A program made the translations under genes and the position numbers. A model generated the notes under the pieces. That model was given only the letters and a program-made list of their open reading frames with translations. It ran no database searches and had not been told where the DNA came from. From Dehalococcoidia bacterium (lineage in GTDB: Bacteria; Chloroflexota; Dehalococcoidia; UBA2979): a stretch of DNA of 64,000 bases. The stretch lies in NCBI GenBank assembly GCA_009379925.1, contig WHSU01000001.1:186001-250000 (forward strand), read 5' to 3'. Of this stretch, positions 40,403-50,313 are shown piece by piece (the first letter of the stretch is position 1; every line of letters begins with the position of its first letter).

Positions 40403-41557
40403 ATGGCTGACGGGAACGGCGACGAGCCGCAGGTCGAGATCCATCGAGGGCTGAACGGTGTCTACTTCGACCGCAGCCGCGTCTGCTACATCGACGGTCG
40501 CGAGGGCGTGCTGCAGTACCGCGGCTACTCGATCCACGACCTCGCCCCGCGCTCGACCTTCGAGGAGACGGCGTACCTCTTGCTCTACGGTGACCTGCCG
40601 GCGCGCGAGCAACTCAAGGCGTTCGATGCCGAGTTGAAGGCCGCGCGCACCCTCCCTGACCCGGTGATCGAGGTGATCCGCCTCGTCCAGGACGCGCACC
40701 CGATGGACGTGCTGCGGACGGCCGTCTCGGCGCTCTCCGCCTTCGACCCGGACGTCGGCGACAACTCGATGGAGGCGACGCAGCGGAAGGGCCTCCGCCT
40801 CACCTCGCAGGTGCCGATGGTCGTGGCCGCGCACCACCGCATCCGCAGCGGCGAGGCCCCGGTGGCGCCTCGGGAGGACCTGGGGCACGCGGCAAACTTC
40901 CTCTACATGCTCAAGGGGGAACCGCCGAGCGACGACGCCTCCCGGCTGATGGACATGGACTTCATCCTCCACGCCGAGCACGGCACGAACGCCTCGGCGT
41001 TCACCGCTCGCGTGGTGGCGGGCACCGATGCGAACCTCCACGCGGCCGTGGTCGCGGGCATCGCGGCGCTCTCCGGCCCGGCGCACGGCGGCGCCGCCGA
41101 GAACGTGATGCGCATGGCGCAGGAGATCGGCGAGCCGGAGCGCGCCGCCGACTATGTGAAGCGCCTGCGCTCGAACCGAGAGCCCGTCATGGGTTTCGGG
41201 CACCGCGTCTACCGCACAGAAGACCCGCGCGCCCGCCACATGCGCGAGGGCGTGCAGCGCCTGTCGCAGGAGATGGGCGAGCCCAGGTGGTACGCCATCC
41301 TCGAGGCCGTCGTCGAGGCGATGCGGCCGTATGCGCGCCTGGGCGTGAACGTGAACGTGGACTTCTACGCGGGCGTCGTCTACTACCTCCACGGCATCCC
41401 GGAGGACCTCTTCGTCCCCATCTTCGCCGTCGGCCGCACGCCCGGCTGGGCCGTGCAGGTGCTCGAGCAGTTCGAGCACAACATCCTGCTCCGCCCGCTC
41501 ACCCTCTACAGCGGCCCCCGCGACCGCGACTACGTCCCGCTCGCGGAGCGGGGATGA
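40403..41557 (+). CDS. Citrate synthase family enzyme
   Basis: A 384-residue citrate/2-methylcitrate synthase. The catalytic triad is visible: His228 (SGPAHGGAAE), His267 (GFGHRVYR) and Asp320 (NVDFYAG). Condenses oxaloacetate with acetyl-CoA or propionyl-CoA; the choice cannot be made by eye, though a methylcitrate role would fit the propionate-like acyl-CoA genes nearby. ATG 40403 follows CGGAGCGGC; upstream codons belong to a hairpin repeat. Its stop overlaps the remnant toxin ORF (ATGA). Confidence 0.9.
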   Translation: MADGNGDEPQVEIHRGLNGVYFDRSRVCYIDGREGVLQYRGYSIHDLAPRSTFEETAYLLLYGDLPAREQLKAFDAELKAARTLPDPVIEVIRLVQDAHPMDVLRTAVSALSAFDPDVGDNSMEATQRKGLRLTSQVPMVVAAHHRIRSGEAPVAPREDLGHAANFLYMLKGEPPSDDASRLMDMDFILHAEHGTNASAFTARVVAGTDANLHAAVVAGIAALSGPAHGGAAENVMRMAQEIGEPERAADYVKRLRSNREPVMGFGHRVYRTEDPRARHMREGVQRLSQEMGEPRWYAILEAVVEAMRPYARLGVNVNVDFYAGVVYYLHGIPEDLFVPIFAVGRTPGWAVQVLEQFEHNILLRPLTLYSGPRDRDYVPLAERG

Positions 41558-41881: not shown

Positions 41882-42217
41882 CTAGTTCTCCGCCGGTGGC
41901 CCTTCGAGGTGCTCGCGTAGCCGCGCAAGGCGGCGGTCCCAGGCAGCACCAGCGCGTTCGAGCCACTGCGACGCCTCGGCCAGGACCTCCGGGCGTACGC
42001 GGTAGATGACCGCGCGGCCTCGATGCTCAGCCGCCGCGACCAGGCCCGCTTCGCTCAGGACGGCGACGTGCTTCGCCACACCCTGTCGCGTGATCGGCAG
42101 GCGCTGGGAGAGGGCGGTGGCTGTCGCGCCATCGCCCTCCCCCAGTAGCTGCAGCAGTTCGAGGCGAGTCGGGTCGCCGAGGGCGCGGAAGACCGTGCTC
42201 GCCTCCGTGGCGTTCAA
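41882..42217 (-). CDS. ArsR-family transcriptional repressor
   Basis: A winged-helix regulator of about 111 residues: STVFRALGDPTRLELLQLLGEG then ATALSQRLPITRQGVAKHVAVLSEAGLV, followed by a C-terminal helix. The TTG start at 42217 overlaps the stop of the SRPBCC gene (TTGA), giving translational coupling; an upstream ATG at 42262 would overlap by 49 nt. Paired with an SRPBCC protein, as in many bacterial operons where ArsR controls a START-domain hydrolase homologue. Two identical dyads in front of the operon are the likely operators. Confidence 0.87.
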   Translation of the reverse strand: MNATEASTVFRALGDPTRLELLQLLGEGDGATATALSQRLPITRQGVAKHVAVLSEAGLVAAAEHRGRAVIYRVRPEVLAEASQWLERAGAAWDRRLARLREHLEGPPAEN

Positions 42218-42678
42218 GCCCAACGCGCCTTCTCGCCGGTGTTCAGGTAGTGACGCAGCCACGTCAGCACCATGTCCCAGCCGTACTCGTTCTCGCCGAT
42301 GGTCTTCGTGCCGAGCGCTGCGGGCAGCGCCGCAAAGCCACTCTCCCGCACTCGCAGCAGCGTGCCGTGCATGTGGTCCTCGAGGCGGAACTCGATCTGC
42401 GTGGTGAGGTCCGGTATTTCCTCGGCGCCCGGCTCGTCCTGGAACGGGCGCCAGTTGGTCACGAACCGCGACTCCGGCTCGACCGCCACGACCGTCGCGT
42501 GGTTGATCCCGTGCTCCGGCCCGAAGTCCAGGGTCAGCCGGCCGCCCGGCCGCAGGTCGATCTCCGCGCCGTCACACCACCAGCCGGCCAGTCCTTCTGC
42601 CGTTGTCAGCGCCGCCCAGAGCTCGGACCGCGTGGCCTTGAACACCACCTCACGCTCGATTGTGTCCTTGACGGTCAT
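42214..42678 (-). CDS. SRPBCC (AHSA1-like) protein
   Basis: 154 residues with the START/Bet v1-like pattern of AHSA1 family members: TIEREVVFKATRSELWAALTTAEGLAGWWCDGAEIDLRPGG (given as ATRSELWAALT and GLAGWW), a hydrophobic cavity, and a C-terminal helix (WDMVLTWLRHYLN). The family binds hydrophobic ligands; individual functions are usually unknown. ATG 42678 with GGGGAG upstream. First gene of a two-gene operon with the ArsR-type repressor. Confidence 0.85.
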   Translation of the reverse strand: MTVKDTIEREVVFKATRSELWAALTTAEGLAGWWCDGAEIDLRPGGRLTLDFGPEHGINHATVVAVEPESRFVTNWRPFQDEPGAEEIPDLTTQIEFRLEDHMHGTLLRVRESGFAALPAALGTKTIGENEYGWDMVLTWLRHYLNTGEKARWA

Positions 42679-42693
42679 GCATCTCCCCTTACC

Positions 42694-42742
42694 GCAACTG
42701 TTTGGTTGCGACAAATGTAGCAACCGAGTGGTTGCGATACAA
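42694..42742 (-). promoter_or_regulatory. Promoter with two GCAAC-6 nt-GTTGC operators (SRPBCC-ArsR operon)
   Basis: On the minus strand, TTGTAT (42737-42742) and TACATT (42714-42719) are 17 nt apart. A perfect 16-bp dyad GCAAC-6-GTTGC (42720-42735) fills the spacer, and a second (42694-42709) follows the -10, with centres 26 nt apart. Repression by the operon's own ArsR is the natural reading. Confidence 0.75.
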
Positions 42743-42799
42743 CCCCCCGTGTCCGGCCACGCCCTAACGTCGCGAGCCGCACCTCGCTACCATCGCCAC

Positions 42800-43414
42800 A
42801 TGCCGCTTGTGCCCGCCTTTCGCGCCGCCGCCGTCGCCCGAGGGCTGTTCCCGGACGACCAGCCGATGACACCCGAGGCGGCGTACGCCCTCGTGCGCGA
42901 CATGCCCTACCGGCGCGCCTCCTCGCGGACGCCCGAGACGACCATCGAGGAGTGGCGCGGGACGTGCTCCGGCAAGCACTACCTGCTGCGTGCGCTGCTG
43001 GAGGGACTGGGGATGGCGACGATGCTCATCGTCTGCACCCACGAGTTCACACGCGAGAACTCGCCCTGGCTGCCCGACGACATCCTCGGGGAGATCGAGC
43101 GCCACGGGCCGGTCCCGGATGTCCACAATTTCCTCCGCGTGCAGGCGGAGCCGGAGGATGACTGGACGACCGTCGACGCCACCTGGCCACTGGCCGCGCG
43201 CGACCTCGGGCTACCGGCCAACGAGGCGTTCGTGCGCGGCGTGGACCAGCGGCTGGCCGCCGACCCGATCGAGGTGTTCCACGTCCCGGACGACGCGGAC
43301 CCGCAGACCTTCAAGGAGCAACTCATCGAGGACCACGCGGGCGCGCAGGCGGAGCGCCGCGACCGGGTCATCGAGCGACTCACGCAGTGGCTCGGCGAGG
43401 TGCTGCCGGGCTGA
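42800..43414 (+). CDS. Transglutaminase-like cysteine hydrolase
   Basis: A 204-residue protein with a likely Cys-His-Asp triad in the transglutaminase/papain order: Cys56 (RGTCSGKHYLL), His109 (DVHNFLRVQ) and Asp126 (TTVDATWPL). No signal peptide. I do not recognise the specific family; bacterial members include peptidases and acyltransferase-like enzymes. Leaderless start likely: TACCAT ends 6 nt before the ATG and no ribosome binding site is seen. Divergent from the SRPBCC-ArsR operon. Confidence 0.75.
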   Translation: MPLVPAFRAAAVARGLFPDDQPMTPEAAYALVRDMPYRRASSRTPETTIEEWRGTCSGKHYLLRALLEGLGMATMLIVCTHEFTRENSPWLPDDILGEIERHGPVPDVHNFLRVQAEPEDDWTTVDATWPLAARDLGLPANEAFVRGVDQRLAADPIEVFHVPDDADPQTFKEQLIEDHAGAQAERRDRVIERLTQWLGEVLPG

Positions 43415-43504
43415 GCCGCGGGGCCCCCCACGCCCGACTCCCCGTGTGGCGGAGGGGATCGGGGAGACCTCTGGGGTGACACGGCGATGCGGTAGGATGT
43501 CGCC

Positions 43505-43858
43505 GTGCAGACACACTCGCTTGGCTACACCCTGGTGTGGGCGCTGGTGCTGACGGTCGCGTGGTTCGCGATTGCGGCGGTGCTCACCGACACGTACCAG
43601 GAGAGCGGCCCCGTCGAAATCGGGCTGACGGCACTCATCTTCTTCCTGATCATCTTCACCACGATGCGCCTGACGAACCGCGTCACCCTCTGGGTGGGCA
43701 AGCGCATGGGCATGGAGCCCCGCGGACCGGGCAACCGAGGGCGCCGCGCGGCGGCCACCCCCGCGGAGCCCGCCCCGTCGACGACCGAGCGCCCCGAGCA
43801 CGCACAGCGCCGCCGCCAGCGGAGGCGCCGCCGGGGCAGCCGCGCGCGTCACGACTAG
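43505..43858 (+). CDS. Small two-helix membrane protein with basic tail
   Basis: 117 residues: two transmembrane helices (LVWALVLTVAWFAIAAVL and IGLTALIFFLIIFTTMRL) and a tail rich in Arg and Pro ending RRRQRRRRRGSRARHD, probably cytoplasmic. TAGGAT ends 6 nt before the GTG, again a leaderless-like start. Not recognised as a named family. The arginine tail might bind nucleic acid or acidic lipids, but this is speculative. Confidence 0.65.
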   Translation: MQTHSLGYTLVWALVLTVAWFAIAAVLTDTYQESGPVEIGLTALIFFLIIFTTMRLTNRVTLWVGKRMGMEPRGPGNRGRRAAATPAEPAPSTTERPEHAQRRRQRRRRRGSRARHD

Positions 43859-43863
43859 CCGGT

Positions 43864-44967
43864 CTACGCGCAGGCCGCGACGACCGCGGCGGCCATCTCC
43901 TCGGTGCGGGTCTGCACCACGTAGGGGTCGTGGAGCCCATCGGTCAGGTAGGCCACGCCCAGACCGCGCGCCGGGTCGCCGTAGGCGACCGCGCATTGCT
44001 GACCGCTGTGGCCGAAGACGCCCGGCTGGTCGAAGGGCGGCGCCCACCCACCGACGAGGAACCCGAGGCCGTACGAGGACGGCAACCCGCTGGTCCGGTC
44101 CTCGTCCGCGGCCGCGTGGACGCGGGTCGCCTCCGCCACGCTCTCCGGCCGCAGCAGACGCACCCCGCCCAGTTCGCCGCCGCCCACCAGCATCGCGTAG
44201 AAGCGCGCCAGCGCCTCGGCGGTGCCGATGCCGTTGGCAGCGGGCAGCTGCGCGCGGAGCGTCGAGGGCTGCGTGAAGCGCCGGACGATGTCGCTCGTGC
44301 GGCCCTCCACGCCCTCCGGGTCCTGGAACGTCACCTCGGACATCGCACGCGGGAGCACGACGTCACCGACTTGCGCGTCGGGTACCCCCAGCGAGGCGTC
44401 CATCCCCAGCGGCGCGAACACCTCATCGCGCAGGAAGTCCCGGGGCATACGGCCGTCGATGCGGCGGATCACCTCCCCGAGGGCGAAGCCGTAGGTCACC
44501 GGGTGGTAGCCCACCTCCGCGCCGGGCGCCCACCGCACCGGCAGCGCCGCTGTCGCCTCGGTCACAGCCTCCCAGTCGTCGATGTGCGCCCAGTCGAACT
44601 CCGGCGGGAAGACCGGGAACCCGCCACGATGGGTCAGCACGTGCCGGACGGTGCATCGCTCCTTGCCGCCCTGCGCGAACTCCGCCCACACCGTGGCGAC
44701 CGGCGCGTCGAGGTCGAGCGCACCGCGATCGGCGAGCATCAGGATCGCTACCGCCGCCAGCGGCTTCGTGGCCGAGAAGTAGAGCATGCGGTCGCGCCCG
44801 CCCATCCGGCGGCCCGCCGCGCCCTCCCCCAGCCGCAGGTCAAGCCGCAACACGCCGTCCCGGTACACGGCGAGTTGCGCCGCCCGATGCCAGCCGCGCT
44901 CGAGGTGCGTCAGCGCCAGCGCCTCGATGTCCGCGCGGCCCTCCGGCGTCAGCGTGCGTGCGCTCAT
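43864..44967 (-). CDS. Serine hydrolase, beta-lactamase class C/esterase family
   Basis: A 367-residue member with Ser65-x-x-Lys68 (FSATKPLAA), Tyr in GYHPVTYG and FGHSGQQC near the C-terminus. No signal peptide. Same architecture as the gene at 13361 and clearly a paralog of it (both have a run like ADRGALDLDAPVA). Cytoplasmic esterase or peptidase is most likely. Converges with the preceding small membrane protein gene, 5 nt apart. Confidence 0.85.
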   Translation of the reverse strand: MSARTLTPEGRADIEALALTHLERGWHRAAQLAVYRDGVLRLDLRLGEGAAGRRMGGRDRMLYFSATKPLAAVAILMLADRGALDLDAPVATVWAEFAQGGKERCTVRHVLTHRGGFPVFPPEFDWAHIDDWEAVTEATAALPVRWAPGAEVGYHPVTYGFALGEVIRRIDGRMPRDFLRDEVFAPLGMDASLGVPDAQVGDVVLPRAMSEVTFQDPEGVEGRTSDIVRRFTQPSTLRAQLPAANGIGTAEALARFYAMLVGGGELGGVRLLRPESVAEATRVHAAADEDRTSGLPSSYGLGFLVGGWAPPFDQPGVFGHSGQQCAVAYGDPARGLGVAYLTDGLHDPYVVQTRTEEMAAAVVAACA

Positions 44968-45092
44968 GGCCGCAGGGTAGCGTGGCCGCCGGCAGGCGTG
45001 TTTCCGAGGGGAGCCGCCGAGGTCGGCGCGCTACACTCGCCAGCGTGAGCACAGTGCGGGCCGTGCCCCGCGCGGCAACGAGAGGCGGCGGC

Positions 45093-45263
45093 ATGTGCGA
45101 CCCGAGCGGCGACGGTCGCCCCTCGTTTGCGGCGCTGTGGTCGAACTGGAGCGAGTACGACGCGCCGGCACACACCAAGCTGCGGCTGCTGGTGCGCAAC
45201 CAGTGGTCCAAGTTGCGCCACGGCACCTCGTGTTGCGGCAACGGCGGCGAACCCGGCTGCTGA
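45093..45263 (+). CDS. Small Cys-rich protein ending CCGNGGEPGC
   Basis: 56 residues from ATG 45093: PSFAALWSNWSEYDAPAHTKLRLLVRNQWSKLRHGTS (given as WSNWSEYDAPA and RNQWSKLRHG) then SCCGNGGEPGC. The closing Cys-rich motif looks like a metal or iron-sulfur ligand set, and I have a vague memory of similar small proteins in GC-rich bacteria, which I cannot verify. AGAGGCGG precedes the ATG; an alternative GTG at 45045 would be leaderless, 7 nt after TACACT (45032-45037), giving 72 residues. Confidence 0.65.
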   Translation: MCDPSGDGRPSFAALWSNWSEYDAPAHTKLRLLVRNQWSKLRHGTSCCGNGGEPGC

Positions 45264-45493
45264 CGCCCGGCGCCGGCGTCCCGTGCGGACGCCTCCGCCG
45301 AATAGCCGCCCCCTGACCGCTTCCTGACCTGCCTCGCCCCCGCCCGGCGCCGCTTACGTTTCGATGCGGGGCAGGATGGCCGATCCACCGAGTACAGGCG
45401 AGATCGAGGGCGTACGGCGTACGTTATGAGTGGCCGCCCAGAATGTATGAGCGAGAGGCACAATTGTAAGAAGCCGGTATCATCGTCCGCGCG

Positions 45494-47464
45494 ATGTTGC
45501 CTCGTGAACGATCCCTACAAGTGTGGCGCCTCCTCTACGAGGCGGAACAGGCGGGCCAGCGGACCGACTGGGGCCTCGTGCGTTCGCTCGCCACCAGCGT
45601 CCACATCCTGGCACCCGACCACCCCGAGGCGCAGCGGCTGTTCCAACAGGCCTCTCGTTTCCTGGGCGGTTCCCCCTACGCGCTGAGCGACGTCGACCCG
45701 GACCGCTTCGAGCGGACCGCGGAGCACCTTGCGCTGGGCCAGTGGTACGAGATGGATGCGTCCGTGCGCCAGATGGTCGGCGCGGACGGCCACGACGCGG
45801 CCGCGCGCGGGCTGCTGCTGACCGCTGCCTGGATGGGTGGCTGGTCCGACCTGGGCCAACCGCCCGGACGGATCCCGTGGGCCGCCATCCGCCGAAGGCT
45901 CGCCGCCCTGCGCCTGCCCGCGCTCTCGCTGCCGGCCTTCTCGCTCCCCGCCTTCTCGATGCCGGCGATCCCGTCGGTGGCGCTACCGGGTGGTGGCGGC
46001 GGCGGACGACGCGCCCCCAGCATGCGCCCGCGCTACCAGCACCGCAGCGGCCCCCGGCCCGAGGCGATCGTGCTGGTCGCGGTGCTGCTGGTCGGCCTGG
46101 CCGTGGCGGCGCTGCTGCTGAACGGCGGCGGCGACGACGGGGGCGGCCTGCAACAGGCGGCCCGCCAGCCGGGAGGCGCCGCGCTCCCCGAGGGCAACCT
46201 TCCGCAGGCGCCGTTCATCGCCTCCCTCGGCTGTGTCACGACCGAGGGGAGCACCGAAATCCGCTGCTCCCCGCAGGTGGAGGGCAACGTCGACCGCTAC
46301 TCGTGGTCGGCGCCCGGCGGGTCGCCGCCGCAGGGCGACGGCGCGCTCTTCGTGACGCAGGGCGAAGATGGCGGGCGCTACTCCATCCTGCTCGAAGTGT
46401 GCAGCGGCGAACACTGCGCGCGCGAGCAGGTGACCGGCCTGATCGTCGGCACCCCGACGCCGATGGTGGCCGAGCCCACGCCTCCCGGGGCCATCGGTGT
46501 CACGCCGACGCCGGGCGGACCGCTGGCGGGCGCACCGCCGCCGACGTCCGCACCCACCACCGCGCCAACGCCTGCGCCGACGCAGACGCCATCGACCGTC
46601 GGGCCGTCGCCGACGCAGCCGCCGCCCGGGACACCCACGGGCGCGGCCGGCCTCCCGCCGGCGATCGCAGACCTGGGCTGCGGCACGACGGAGGCCGTCG
46701 TCGGCCAGCGCGTGACGTGCGCTCCGGTCATCGAGGGCACAGCGGACAGCTACACCTGGACGGTCAACGGCGTGGCCGCGGGCGGCGGGAGACTGCTCTC
46801 CAACCAGTACGCGACACCGGGCGCGAAGCTCATCACGCTGCGCGCCTGCAACGCGGCCGGCTGCGACGAGGCGTCGATCACCGTCAACGTCGCACCCGCG
46901 CCGGTCCCGGCCCTCGCCCTGAGCACCACCTCGCTCGACTTCGGCACGCAGGGGACCAGCCACGCGGTGATGGTGAGCAACGACGGTGGCGGCACCCTCA
47001 CCTGGACGGCCGCAGAGGACATCGGCTGGCTCTCCCTCGACGCGTCGTCCGGCTCCAGCACCGGCGAGGCGGACGCGATGGCCGTTTCGGTGAGCCGCAG
47101 CGGCCTCGACCCGGGCGAATACACCGGGACGATCGTGGTCACCTCGAACGGTGGTGACAGGATCGTCACGGTTCGCATGGCCGTGCCCGCGCCGCCGAGG
47201 CCGCCGCCGACCACCGGAGAGACACCGCCGACTGAGGAGACTCCTCCGACTGAGGAAACACCACCGACCGAAGAGACCCCTCCGACCGATGAGACACCGC
47301 CGACTGAGGAGACTCCTCCGACCGATGAGGCACCGCCGACTGAGGAGACTCCTCCGACTGAAGAGACTCCTCCGACTGAAGAGACTCCTCCGACGGAGGA
47401 GACGCCCCCGACAGGCGGTACCCAGCCGTTCACCTTCCTCGACTTCCTCAGGCTCGGCGGCTAG
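45494..47464 (+). CDS. Single-pass surface protein with PKD/BACON-like domains and TEETPP tail
   Basis: 656 residues. A cytoplasmic region (1-185) has a hydrophobic-repeat stretch LPALSLPAFSLPAFS at about 139-154 before a transmembrane helix at about 191-210. Outside are two immunoglobulin-like PKD-type segments (RYSWSAPGG and YTWTVNG), a Thr/Pro-rich linker, and a BACON-like domain (STTSLDFGTQGTSHAVMVSND; WLSLDASSGS) near 480-575. The end is an 11-copy six-residue repeat TEETPP that looks like a spacer or cell-wall stalk. TATCAT ends 10 nt before the ATG, without a Shine-Dalgarno site. A signal-anchored adhesin or sensor is likely. Confidence 0.75.
   Translation: MLPRERSLQVWRLLYEAEQAGQRTDWGLVRSLATSVHILAPDHPEAQRLFQQASRFLGGSPYALSDVDPDRFERTAEHLALGQWYEMDASVRQMVGADGHDAAARGLLLTAAWMGGWSDLGQPPGRIPWAAIRRRLAALRLPALSLPAFSLPAFSMPAIPSVALPGGGGGGRRAPSMRPRYQHRSGPRPEAIVLVAVLLVGLAVAALLLNGGGDDGGGLQQAARQPGGAALPEGNLPQAPFIASLGCVTTEGSTEIRCSPQVEGNVDRYSWSAPGGSPPQGDGALFVTQGEDGGRYSILLEVCSGEHCAREQVTGLIVGTPTPMVAEPTPPGAIGVTPTPGGPLAGAPPPTSAPTTAPTPAPTQTPSTVGPSPTQPPPGTPTGAAGLPPAIADLGCGTTEAVVGQRVTCAPVIEGTADSYTWTVNGVAAGGGRLLSNQYATPGAKLITLRACNAAGCDEASITVNVAPAPVPALALSTTSLDFGTQGTSHAVMVSNDGGGTLTWTAAEDIGWLSLDASSGSSTGEADAMAVSVSRSGLDPGEYTGTIVVTSNGGDRIVTVRMAVPAPPRPPPTTGETPPTEETPPTEETPPTEETPPTDETPPTEETPPTDEAPPTEETPPTEETPPTEETPPTEETPPTGGTQPFTFLDFLRLGG
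47213..47410 (+). repeat. 18-nt coding minisatellite, 11 units
   Basis: Eleven consecutive 18-nt units (consensus ACTGAGGAGACTCCTCCG) encoding TEETPP with variants TGETPP, TDETPP and TDEAPP. The length is likely to vary between strains. Confidence 0.9.
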
Positions 47465-47638
47465 CAACCACCGTCGACCGACCCGGCTCTCGATGGCTAA
47501 CAGGCGGCTCGCGAAAGGGTTGGGCCGCTGGTCACCCGTGTTACAACGACATATCGATGCAGGCGCACCCCTCGATCGCCACCGTGCTGGTCTGGCCGCC
47601 GCTCGTATCGTGAGCACACGCCCCGGCCCCCGCGCGGG

Positions 47639-47705
47639 GCGAGCGTGGAGGAGGCGAGGCCGGCCATTCCCGGCTCCTCGCCGGCACCGTCCCCCTCACG
47701 CTCGC
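47639..47705. other. Long two-tier inverted repeat in a 714-nt intergenic region
   Basis: Outer arms GCGAGCGTG (47639-47647) and CACGCTCGC (47697-47705) are perfect; inner arms GGCGAGG (47653-47659) and CCTCGCC (47676-47682) enclose a further CCGG/CCGG pairing. It can form a stable 67-nt structure, as an RNA or a cruciform. Could be the terminator of the surface-protein gene, an RNA gene or a protein site. The rest of 47465-48178 shows no clear gene apart from a weak ORF. Confidence 0.5.
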
Positions 47706-47745
47706 ACGCGGCCGGACGACTTCCACGACAGGGGGCCACACACAC

Positions 47746-47970
47746 GTGACAGCACGCAGCGCGGACCAGGGGCGTTGCCAGGAGTTGCGAGACGCGCGAC
47801 AGACCGCGACCGCACCACTGGCGCCGGCCGGCCGTGACACCGCAAACCCGGCATTCCACACGGTGCCCGGCACGACCGACGCCGGAGACACCACACCGGA
47901 CGCCCGCTTCGAGCTGGAGCACCAGATCCGGGAACTCGAGCGCGCACTCCGGGAAGCCGGCTGCGAGTGA
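47746..47970 (+). CDS. Doubtful small ORF
   Basis: GTG start, 74 residues, no ribosome binding site. Only the end (RFELEHQIRELERALREAG) looks protein-like, as a short coiled coil. No family recognised; it may be a chance ORF in GC-rich DNA. Confidence 0.25.
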   Translation: MTARSADQGRCQELRDARQTATAPLAPAGRDTANPAFHTVPGTTDAGDTTPDARFELEHQIRELERALREAGCE

Positions 47971-48178
47971 GCCGCTTGGGGGCCCGTGGGGTATTCCCCG
48001 ATGTCGCCCGGCTCCGACTCGACCATGCTCACCAGCACCGGATTGTATACGTCGTTTATGGGTACCGTCCGTCCGTAATGGACGCTGAGCAACTCGTCAG
48101 GCAAGGTGGAGTCGTCACCGGCCCGGTCGACGGTCATAGTCCTGCCCTGGCGTGCCGACGTGAGGAGTCATCGGCCCT

Positions 48179-48559
48179 ATGGCCGCAGAAATGAGTGACG
48201 TGAAAGTCCTCGTGGTCGACGATGATGCCGCTGTCCTCCGCCTCGTGCGCGCCACCCTGCGCGACGAAGGCTTCGAGGTCTTGACGGCCACGAACGGCGC
48301 GGAGGCGCTGGAACGGATCGACGACGACACGTCACCGGATGCGATCGTGCTTGACCTCGAGATGCCGGTGATGGACGGGGCGACGTTCTACCAGGCGATG
48401 CGCCAGCGCGGCATCCAGACGCCGGTGATCATCCTCTCGGCCCACGGGGCGCACCGCGTACGCCGCCTGCTGGGCGCCAACGCGGCGGTGGACAAGCCCT
48501 TCGACGCTCAGGTCCTGGTGGACCAGCTCAAGGAGCTGGCGGGCGCGCCGGACCGCTGA
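48179..48559 (+). CDS. Stand-alone response regulator receiver protein
   Basis: 126 residues, a REC domain only: Asp-rich DDD14-16, phospho-acceptor Asp59 (VLDLEMPVMDG), switch Ser in IILSAHG and Lys106 in DKPFD. Close paralog of the protein at 16747. Its 3' end overlaps the 3' end of the convergent kinase gene by 52 nt. The kinase next door is the obvious phosphate donor, making this a possible second output of that kinase. Confidence 0.88.
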   Translation: MAAEMSDVKVLVVDDDAAVLRLVRATLRDEGFEVLTATNGAEALERIDDDTSPDAIVLDLEMPVMDGATFYQAMRQRGIQTPVIILSAHGAHRVRRLLGANAAVDKPFDAQVLVDQLKELAGAPDR

Positions 48560-50313
48560 CCGCGGCGACTCACACCGGGGGCATGCTCCGGTAGCCAGAA
48601 GCGGAACTCCGAGCCCTCTCCGGCCTTGCTGGAAGCCTCCAGCCGCGCCCCCAGGTGCTCGGCCAGCCGTCGCGAAATGTAGAGGCCGAGCCCTAGCCCC
48701 TTGCGGCCGCTGGAGGTGGCGCGTCCTCGATAGAAGCGGTCGAAGACGCGGTCCAGGTCTTCCGGCGGAATACCGTCGCCATTGTCGTGCACCGTGATCG
48801 CGATGCCGCCCTCCCTGCGGGTCACGCTCACGCGCACGCGCGGGGGGACGCCTCCGTACTTGGCGGCGTTGTCCATCAGGTTGGACACGATCTGCCGCAT
48901 GCGCTGCTCGTCGGTCTCCACGATCGCCTCGTCGTCCTCGTACTCCTCCTCGAAGATGGCCGAGGGGTAGCGCTCGCGGAGCATTGCGATCTCGCGCCCG
49001 ACCAGGTGGCGCACCTCGATGGGCTCGGGCTCGACGGTGAGCACATTGGCGTCCAGGCGGGACATGTCCAGGAACAGTTCCACCATGCGCCGCATCCGCT
49101 CGGACTCCAGCAACAGCGTCTCCAGCTCGTCCGCCGCCTCCGCGTCCAGACCGGCGCCGTTGCGGGCGCGCCGCGCCAGCCGGCGGCTGAACCCGGTGAT
49201 CGAGGTGAGCGGGCTGCGCAGCTCGTGCGAGGCGAGCGCCAGGAACTCCTGCGCCTGCTGTTCGCGCTCGAGTTGTGGCGTGAGGTCCTCGAACACCACC
49301 ACGTCACCGGAGACGCCCTCCGCGCCACGCACGGGCGCGGAGCTGACCTGCGCCATCAGGGTGTCGCCGTCCGCCTTCACGAACGCCTCGTGGCCGTGGT
49401 AGCGGCGGCCGCCGCGCAAGGCGGCGGCCAGTCCGGCGCCCGGCGCCTCGATGCCCGCCAGCGCGCCGGCGGCCGTGGCGCCGGGCGCATCGTGGAAAAG
49501 GCGGTCGGCGCGCGCGTGTTCCAGGTCCTCCACGGCATAGCCCAGCATGCGCGCCCCGGCCGGGTTGACGTACTGCACGTGCCAGTCGCGTCCCAGCTGC
49601 AATACGCCGAACCCGGTGGCCTCCACCATGCCCAGGAACCGGCCCCGCTCCCGCTCGCTCGCCCGCAACAGCGCGCGCCGCGAGCGCTCGATGCCGAGCA
49701 GCGCGATCAGCGCCGCGCCGCCCAGCAGCGAGACGAAGACGGAGAGCGCCAGTCCGAAGTGCTGGAGGTTGGTATACCCCTCGCGGGTCTCCTGGATATC
49801 GACTTCCAGCTGCCGCTGGAGGTCACCGGCGGCGGTGGTGAACTCCGCCAGGATCGGACGCGCGGCCCACACCAGCTCGAACTGCACACGGTCCGGATCC
49901 TCGAAGCGCGCCTCGACGCCGCTGTCCACGGTCGACACCACGCTGTCCGACAGGGCGATCAGGCCCCGCACCTCGTCCTGGTACTCGGTGTCCCGCGTGC
50001 GGGCCTGCAGGCGCGCCACGTTGAGGTCGTAGCGGGAGCGGATCTGCTCGTAGGCGTCCAGCGAGGGCACGCCCTCCTGGAGGGCGTAGCGGGTGCCCTC
50101 GGCGACGGCGGCGAGCGTGTCGATGTAGACGCGGTCGACGGCTCGGGCGGCGGGGTCCAGCGTCTCCACCAGCTCGGTAGCGCCACGATCCGCCCGCTGG
50201 CCGACGCCCAGCGAAATCAGGGGGACGAGGACCAGCGCGGCCGCGACGAAGCCGAAGCCGGTGGTCAGCCAGAAGGCGCGCGAGGCACGCCATCGGGCGC
50301 GAAGCATGGTCAT
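48508..50313 (-). CDS. Membrane histidine kinase with PAS domain
   Basis: 601 residues: transmembrane helices at about 14-36 and 187-208 flanking a helical extracytoplasmic region of about 150 residues, a PAS domain at about 225-345 (VLQLGRDWHVQYVNPAGARMLGY), HisKA with phospho-acceptor His363 (ASHELRSPLTSI) and HATPase_c (VSNLMDNAAKYG, DNGDGIPPEDLDRVFDRFYRG, GLGLGLYISRRLAEHL). Starts divergently 152 nt from the OmpR-type regulator gene and converges on the REC gene. Its C-terminal tail runs into the REC gene's antisense strand. The ligand is unknown. Confidence 0.9.
   Translation of the reverse strand: MTMLRARWRASRAFWLTTGFGFVAAALVLVPLISLGVGQRADRGATELVETLDPAARAVDRVYIDTLAAVAEGTRYALQEGVPSLDAYEQIRSRYDLNVARLQARTRDTEYQDEVRGLIALSDSVVSTVDSGVEARFEDPDRVQFELVWAARPILAEFTTAAGDLQRQLEVDIQETREGYTNLQHFGLALSVFVSLLGGAALIALLGIERSRRALLRASERERGRFLGMVEATGFGVLQLGRDWHVQYVNPAGARMLGYAVEDLEHARADRLFHDAPGATAAGALAGIEAPGAGLAAALRGGRRYHGHEAFVKADGDTLMAQVSSAPVRGAEGVSGDVVVFEDLTPQLEREQQAQEFLALASHELRSPLTSITGFSRRLARRARNGAGLDAEAADELETLLLESERMRRMVELFLDMSRLDANVLTVEPEPIEVRHLVGREIAMLRERYPSAIFEEEYEDDEAIVETDEQRMRQIVSNLMDNAAKYGGVPPRVRVSVTRREGGIAITVHDNGDGIPPEDLDRVFDRFYRGRATSSGRKGLGLGLYISRRLAEHLGARLEASSKAGEGSEFRFWLPEHAPGVSRRGQRSGAPASSLSWSTRT

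Follow-up and report, generated by a model that had tools for sequence, protein, structure and literature searches.

A small cysteine-tailed protein family of bacteria and its linkage to leucine and TCA-cycle genes

The locus and its small gene

The window, i.e., the whole stretch of DNA that was analyzed (64,000 nucleotides of a Dehalococcoidia bacterium; contig WHSU01000001.1, positions 186,001 to 250,000), contains a small gene on the forward strand with a possible ribosome-binding site ahead of its start codon (Table 1). The frame given in the initial annotation holds exactly, with a 56-residue translation that ends in CCGNGGEPGC. In this genome the gene stands alone, flanked by unrelated genes, namely that of a divergent serine hydrolase and that of a BACON-domain protein, the latter protein finishing in successive ETPPT-type repeats with GTQPFTFLDFLRLGG as its terminus. 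The sole leucine- or TCA-pathway marker found in the window is a citrate synthase-like gene, which is separated from the small gene by several others and whose tabulated identity is to an actinobacterial marker; the leuD gene of this genome lies on a different contig. The genome, which is 87% complete, contains one clear copy of the small gene, the next matches having E-values of 0.3 and 0.4. Rfam, promoter and terminator scans in the vicinity of the small gene, made for this locus, found no element.

Table 1. Features of the small gene and its surroundings in the window
Feature	Coordinates	Strand	Basis
Small gene, 56 aa plus stop	45093..45263	+	Translation; homologs and purifying selection
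Possible ribosome-binding site GAGAGG, 7 nt 5' of the ATG	45080..45085	+	Reading of the sequence; putative
Predicted helix 1, residues 12-21, with near-invariant N18	45126..45155	+	AlphaFold2
Predicted helix 2, residues 26-43, with K29 and near-invariant N36	45168..45221	+	AlphaFold2
C-terminal tail CCGNGGEPGC, residues 47-56, family hallmark	45231..45260	+	Column counts over 132 members
Divergent neighbor, beta-lactamase-fold serine hydrolase (PF00144)	43864..44967	-	Pfam E 1.8e-59; context only
Downstream neighbor with BACON-type domain	45494..47464	+	Pfam BACON_2 E 8.8e-10; context only
Citrate synthase-like gene (tblastn extent), 3.5 kb upstream	40445..41554	+	tblastn 48% identity over 375 aa, E 4e-105; context only

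A conserved family with a cysteine tail

Chance ORFs are common in GC-rich DNA, and 59 ORFs of at least 40 aa overlap the region 42000-49000 of the window; a spurious reading frame would be the trivial explanation for the small gene. It is refuted by the existence of hundreds of relatives across several phyla and by the purifying selection acting upon them (pooled pN/pS 0.11, range 0.00-0.35, for the last 47 codons of 14 hand-picked close pairs), which leave it next to no probability. Conservation beyond the genome of origin, on which the initial annotation had made its own proposal depend, is pronounced: matches were recovered in 32 of 99 genomes at E ≤ 1e-4 and in 46 of the 99 at a looser E ≤ 0.1 (own genome included). 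Further, the search for the tail motif suggested there, when conducted over a collection of GTDB genomes with a first profile, yielded 514 stretches matching CCG[NH]xG[EQ]PG, 386 of which tblastn confirmed as relatives; the best 80 of these were retained. It is virtually certain that the small protein represents a real, conserved bacterial family.

By the titles of their records, the relatives belong to Chloroflexota, Actinobacteria (Acidimicrobiia, Thermoleophilia and others) and Deltaproteobacteria, with single records labeled Pelotomaculum, Armatimonadetes and Acidobacteria. Phylum-wide surveys with a profile of 91 sequences (A2, thresholded at E ≤ 1e-3) found carriers in 31 of 251 genomes of the window's own phylum (own genome included), in 42 of 296 from the phylum of an actinobacterial seed, G349 (six of the 42 already known here), and in 18 of 148 from that of a deltaproteobacterial seed, G367 (two already known), a repeat draw of nearly the same set as the last giving 17 of 148. 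In the phylum of the Pelotomaculum-labeled record (G343) the sole carrier among 149 genomes was the seed itself, and for this reason that record may reflect a misplaced contig or a transfer. By eye, the loci with the three isolated labels (L044, L085 and L109; Pelotomaculum, Armatimonadetes and Acidobacteria, respectively) resemble chloroflexotal or acidimicrobial members, and their contigs may be misbinned. The tentative impression given in the initial annotation, that small proteins from GC-rich bacteria can end similarly, proves right in substance: GC content falls below 50% in 21 of the 174 loci examined, i.e., GC-rich genomes are the rule for carriers and not a limit. The gene is mostly single-copy; two or three tandem copies occur at four loci (L083, L095, L210 and L306), in the latter two of which they are located between leuD and leuB.

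The family is without a name in the protein-family libraries that were searched. Pfam returned no family for the window protein at E ≤ 1 or for 132 members at E ≤ 0.01, and NCBIfam none for the window protein or for 32 members. When the same number of members was compared with Pfam at E ≤ 0.1, one of them matched one family (E 0.04), and a sequence search of the PDB gave four calponin-type matches (E 0.25-0.8); both results were taken as chance. A Foldseek comparison with the PDB found no similar solved fold (best E 7.7), and neither plasmids searched with the window protein nor phages searched with the L045 protein gave a match. Six common full tail strings were absent from the literature text searched, the matches to GEPGC or GQPGC in the literature were judged, from their titles and the beginnings of their abstracts, to be unrelated, and no earlier description of the family was found in this limited literature.

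The hallmark of the family is its tail, with the consensus CC-G-[NH]-x-G-[EQ]-P-G-C; the chain ends exactly with it in 129 of the 132 main-set members and in 33 of 36 held-out members. The final cysteine is present in all 132, the first glycine in 128 and the second in 131, while the remaining positions divide into N or H (78/54) and E, Q or D (97/33/2); the CC pair, the proline and the last glycine also read 132/132, in a set picked by a pattern that demanded CC, P or V, and G. The exceptions include members with extra residues, often again cysteine, after the tail (L075, L203, L204 and L297) and altered versions (L304 and L327). One further copy (L192), outside the 132, is without the tail on account of an in-frame stop. 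At the same place, listed also as L175, a reading of the in-frame TGA as selenocysteine was rejected: the stop falls two residues before the CC pair, at a position where relatives have another residue. This copy, from a genome of the deltaproteobacterial draw, additionally has an arginine in place of a tail glycine and looks decayed or misread.

Besides the tail, N18, P25, K29 and N36 (window numbering) are fixed or nearly fixed. The aromatic-rich body described at the outset is conserved only in part: the column of W19 contains tryptophan in 61 of 132 members (counted back from the tail, ungapped). AlphaFold2 predicts two helices followed by an unstructured tail for the window protein (mean pLDDT 68.5), and the same two helices with a loose tail for another member, whose alignment was deeper (mean pLDDT 65.4); the two-helix model is thus a prediction of modest confidence, in which the tail is left unstructured. 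The last 49 residues carry a median net charge of +5 with a pI of 9.9 (168 members), the window protein itself being near neutral with a pI of 7.7. The short N-terminus is variable: with starts picked by a simple rule, at least three histidines, and up to 15, precede the body in 10 of 133 members; Met-Cys opens the chain in 25 of the 133. Very histidine-rich N-termini (up to 15 His) were seen in the actinobacterial members L222, L226, L227, L217 and L062.

The three tail cysteines, together with the fourth position occupied by N or H, form a cluster of conserved candidate ligands as seen in small metal-binding proteins, the CC pair among them having belonged to the pattern by which tails were picked. 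Metal-binding by the tail, as proposed in the initial annotation, is plausible on these grounds and in view of the N-termini with three or more histidines in 10 of 133 members; a disulfide or redox role would be equally compatible.

Recurrent linkage to leucine and TCA-cycle genes in two phyla

Neighbor clustering across 138 loci (duplicates included), with cluster identities taken from Pfam and NCBIfam and genes called by a simple purpose-made ORF picker, reveals no universal partner. Within 1.5 kb, LeuD is the commonest cluster, at 13 loci, followed by LeuC at 12, isocitrate/isopropylmalate dehydrogenase at 10 and malate dehydrogenase at 7; each of the remaining clusters listed has 6 loci or fewer. 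A large ABC exporter family makes up the most widespread cluster overall, at 21 loci of which 3 have it within 1.5 kb, and was not taken as a partner. At two loci (L183 and L192) the small gene and a gene whose product has a radical-SAM motif (TDRCNLRC[KR]HCY) diverge from each other at a distance of 150-230 bp.

These clusters were followed with a set of markers, i.e., LeuA, LeuB, LeuC, LeuD, Idh, Mdh, citrate synthase, SdhA and SdhB, whose representatives were checked by NCBIfam. With the first marker set, which was chosen after the neighbors had been viewed, 31 of 137 gene windows (L046, a near copy of L045, having been dropped beforehand) have a marker within ±3 kb as against 1 of 99 control windows, the controls being stretches from gene-carrying genomes, mostly contig starts, with L273, which shares its contig with L051, and stretches of less than 2500 bases dropped. 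Removal of the duplicates L179, L189, L218 and L221 leaves 29 linked loci of 133 (Fisher p 5e-7 vs the controls, with related loci not independent of each other) and 104 that are unlinked within 3 kb. With the interval widened to ±6 kb and the window itself added, the linked loci number 30 of 134, and the control stretches with a marker 1 of 55. In a further set of 36 held-out loci, for which the markers had already been fixed, 10 are linked within 3 kb (Fisher p 6e-6 vs the same 99 controls); these loci are distant or unexamined members from the same phyla and hence not a fully independent sample. By group, each label coming from the title of a record or from membership of the phylum drawn for a titled seed and not from per-genome taxonomy, the linked non-redundant loci number 15 of 61 in Chloroflexota, 13 of 49 in Actinobacteria, none of 19 in deltaproteobacteria and 1 of 4 elsewhere. 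A study of the neighborhood had been recommended at the outset; the recurrent linkage to leucine and TCA-cycle isomerase and dehydrogenase genes in two phyla that it uncovered was unforeseen there and is new here.

The linkage takes more than one form. In Chloroflexota records, many of them titled Dehalococcoidia, leuC, leuD and the small gene follow each other on one strand. A base-by-base check of seven such junctions shows that the start of the small gene overlaps the stop of leuD, through TGATG in L043 and L045, ATGA in L034, L037, L057 and L089, and GTGA in L054, an arrangement suggestive of translational coupling; in L034, leuD is the only one of these genes directly upstream. Other loci show leuA-leuC-leuD-gene-leuB (L063), leuD-gene-leuB with short gaps (L298), leuA-leuC-leuD followed by a gap and then gene-leuB (L303), leuD and leuB with two or three copies of the gene in between (L210 and L306), or leuC-leuD-gene (L078 and L090). 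The best LeuD marker is of the shorter type in four of these seven loci (L063, L078, L090 and L298). LeuD of both size types takes part in the linkage. In three acidimicrobial loci (L050, L080 and L097) leuD-leuC is located downstream on the opposite strand. A distinct arrangement prevails at eleven actinobacterial loci (L073, L098, L101, L108, L219, L230, L233, L236, L320, L321 and L328), where the row reads citrate synthase (-), idh (+), mdh (+), the small gene (+), idh (-) and sdhB/sdhA (-); in some of them the row is interrupted by additional genes or gaps or meets the end of the contig.

On a tree of 169 rows and 53 columns, which is poorly resolved, the leucine link requires 10 changes and that to the TCA genes 4, of which well-supported branches alone force 3 and 2, respectively. 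The nearest rows to the window protein are leucine-linked in four cases (L033, L039, L037 and L089) and unlinked in one (L041).

Possible roles and known systems

These features might be accommodated by a thiol or metal accessory protein of the leucine- and TCA-pathway isomerases and dehydrogenases, a tentative reading which we favor although we would place it short of probable, the link to the enzymes being one of gene order. The tail would constitute a thiol site that either binds metal (Fe, Zn or Fe-S species) or switches via disulfide formation, and the predicted helices would dock the protein onto LeuCD, LeuB, Idh and Mdh, i.e., the enzymes of the citrate/isopropylmalate isomerase and isocitrate/isopropylmalate/malate dehydrogenase steps. 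Once docked, it would adjust their activity or the state of their metal centers. In some lineages its gene stands in an operon-like row with the genes of these enzymes, while in others, the window's genome included, it is on its own. The conserved tail, the purifying selection, the two-helix predictions, the varied linked gene orders and the histidine-rich N-termini of some members all count in its favor; the large unlinked fraction of the loci, the complete absence of linkage in the deltaproteobacterial ones and the isolation of the window gene count against it. Mdh, LeuB and Idh contain no Fe-S clusters, and since not all the linked enzymes hold such clusters, a pure Fe-S helper would fit only part of the cases.

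Alternatively, the small protein could be a stand-alone peptide for binding or delivering a metal such as Zn, Ni, Cu or Fe, with the leucine and TCA neighbors merely marking well-expressed housekeeping sites. The three conserved cysteines, the N-termini with at least three histidines, the additional cysteines beyond the tail in the four members noted above and the want of a constant neighbor all agree with this, as does the presence of a ferritin-like upstream neighbor in L106 and a hemerythrin one in L104, both from proteobacterial records. However, the overlap with the leuD stop and the repeated placement between leuD and leuB are more specific than a general housekeeping context, and no metal transporter or regulator is among the recurrent neighbor families identified (25 of 63 and 25 of 107 Pfam families listed). 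Such a peptide is possible while being on the unlikely side. The basic character of most members, along with the near-invariant asparagine in each predicted helix, could instead point to a small RNA- or ribosome-binding protein in which the cysteine tail is structural. Against this stand the near-neutral window member, the want of a Pfam match among the 132 members and the absence of any ribosomal family from the same 25 of 63 and 25 of 107 neighbor families listed, and we regard it as improbable.

The small size, the near-invariant C-terminus and the tandem copies also recall the precursors of ribosomally made, modified peptides, with the tail as the core. Yet this would-be core hardly varies, unlike the variable cores looked for in such precursors, and a radical-SAM-type CxxxCxxC motif occurs in only 4 of 617 ORFs of more than 180 aa within 3 kb: those of L065 (a HemW-type protein), L183 and L192 are on the opposite strand and that of L202 is 2.1 kb off. 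Within 3 kb no ORF of the radical-SAM type, the one class of modifying enzyme scanned for, adjoins the small gene on its own strand. A precursor role appears very unlikely.

Returning to the accessory-protein reading, small helical helpers in the assembly of TCA-cycle enzymes are represented by SdhE and the LYR-motif proteins. We know of no conserved C-terminal cysteine tail in these, and the Pfam comparison of the 132 members (E ≤ 0.01) recovered neither of their profiles.

AcnSP of Synechocystis, with only 44 aa, is a regulator of aconitase and thereby an example of a very small protein acting on an enzyme of that family; it is reported to resemble the N-terminus of the aconitase AcnB (PMC7336809). 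In contrast, the family described here has a cysteine tail, spans phyla and matches no aconitase model of Pfam (132 members, E ≤ 0.01); its profile likewise gave no match at E ≤ 10 among the neighboring ORFs, LeuC included.

The other instructive case is CP12, described in the cited papers as a small, conditionally disordered, redox-sensitive and cysteine-bearing regulator of central-carbon enzymes (PMC3906501, PMC9406205, PMC8151241). The small protein differs from it in that the same Pfam search detected no CP12 domain, in that the phyla where it occurs are not among the photosynthetic groups named for CP12, and in that its gene is linked to leucine and TCA-cycle genes and not to those of GAPDH and phosphoribulokinase. 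By the tests made at the level of sequence, it is a member of neither the CP12 nor the AcnSP family. If the thiol-switch reading holds, it would nonetheless work in a similar way to CP12, the part of this likeness seen here being only the three conserved cysteines. In a bolder form, which we consider doubtful, it could be a thiol-based partner of the leucine and TCA isomerase-dehydrogenase pairs, reading redox or metal status via its tail to set the flux that passes LeuCD/LeuB and Idh/Mdh, and as such a counterpart of CP12 in function and not by descent. Few parts of bacterial genomes are as poorly annotated as their small proteins, and gene order in some lineages suggests particular enzymes, making the function of this one directly testable; were a thiol- or metal-based regulator of leucine and TCA enzymes borne out, Chloroflexota and Actinobacteria would prove to have a control element of central metabolism that has been overlooked.
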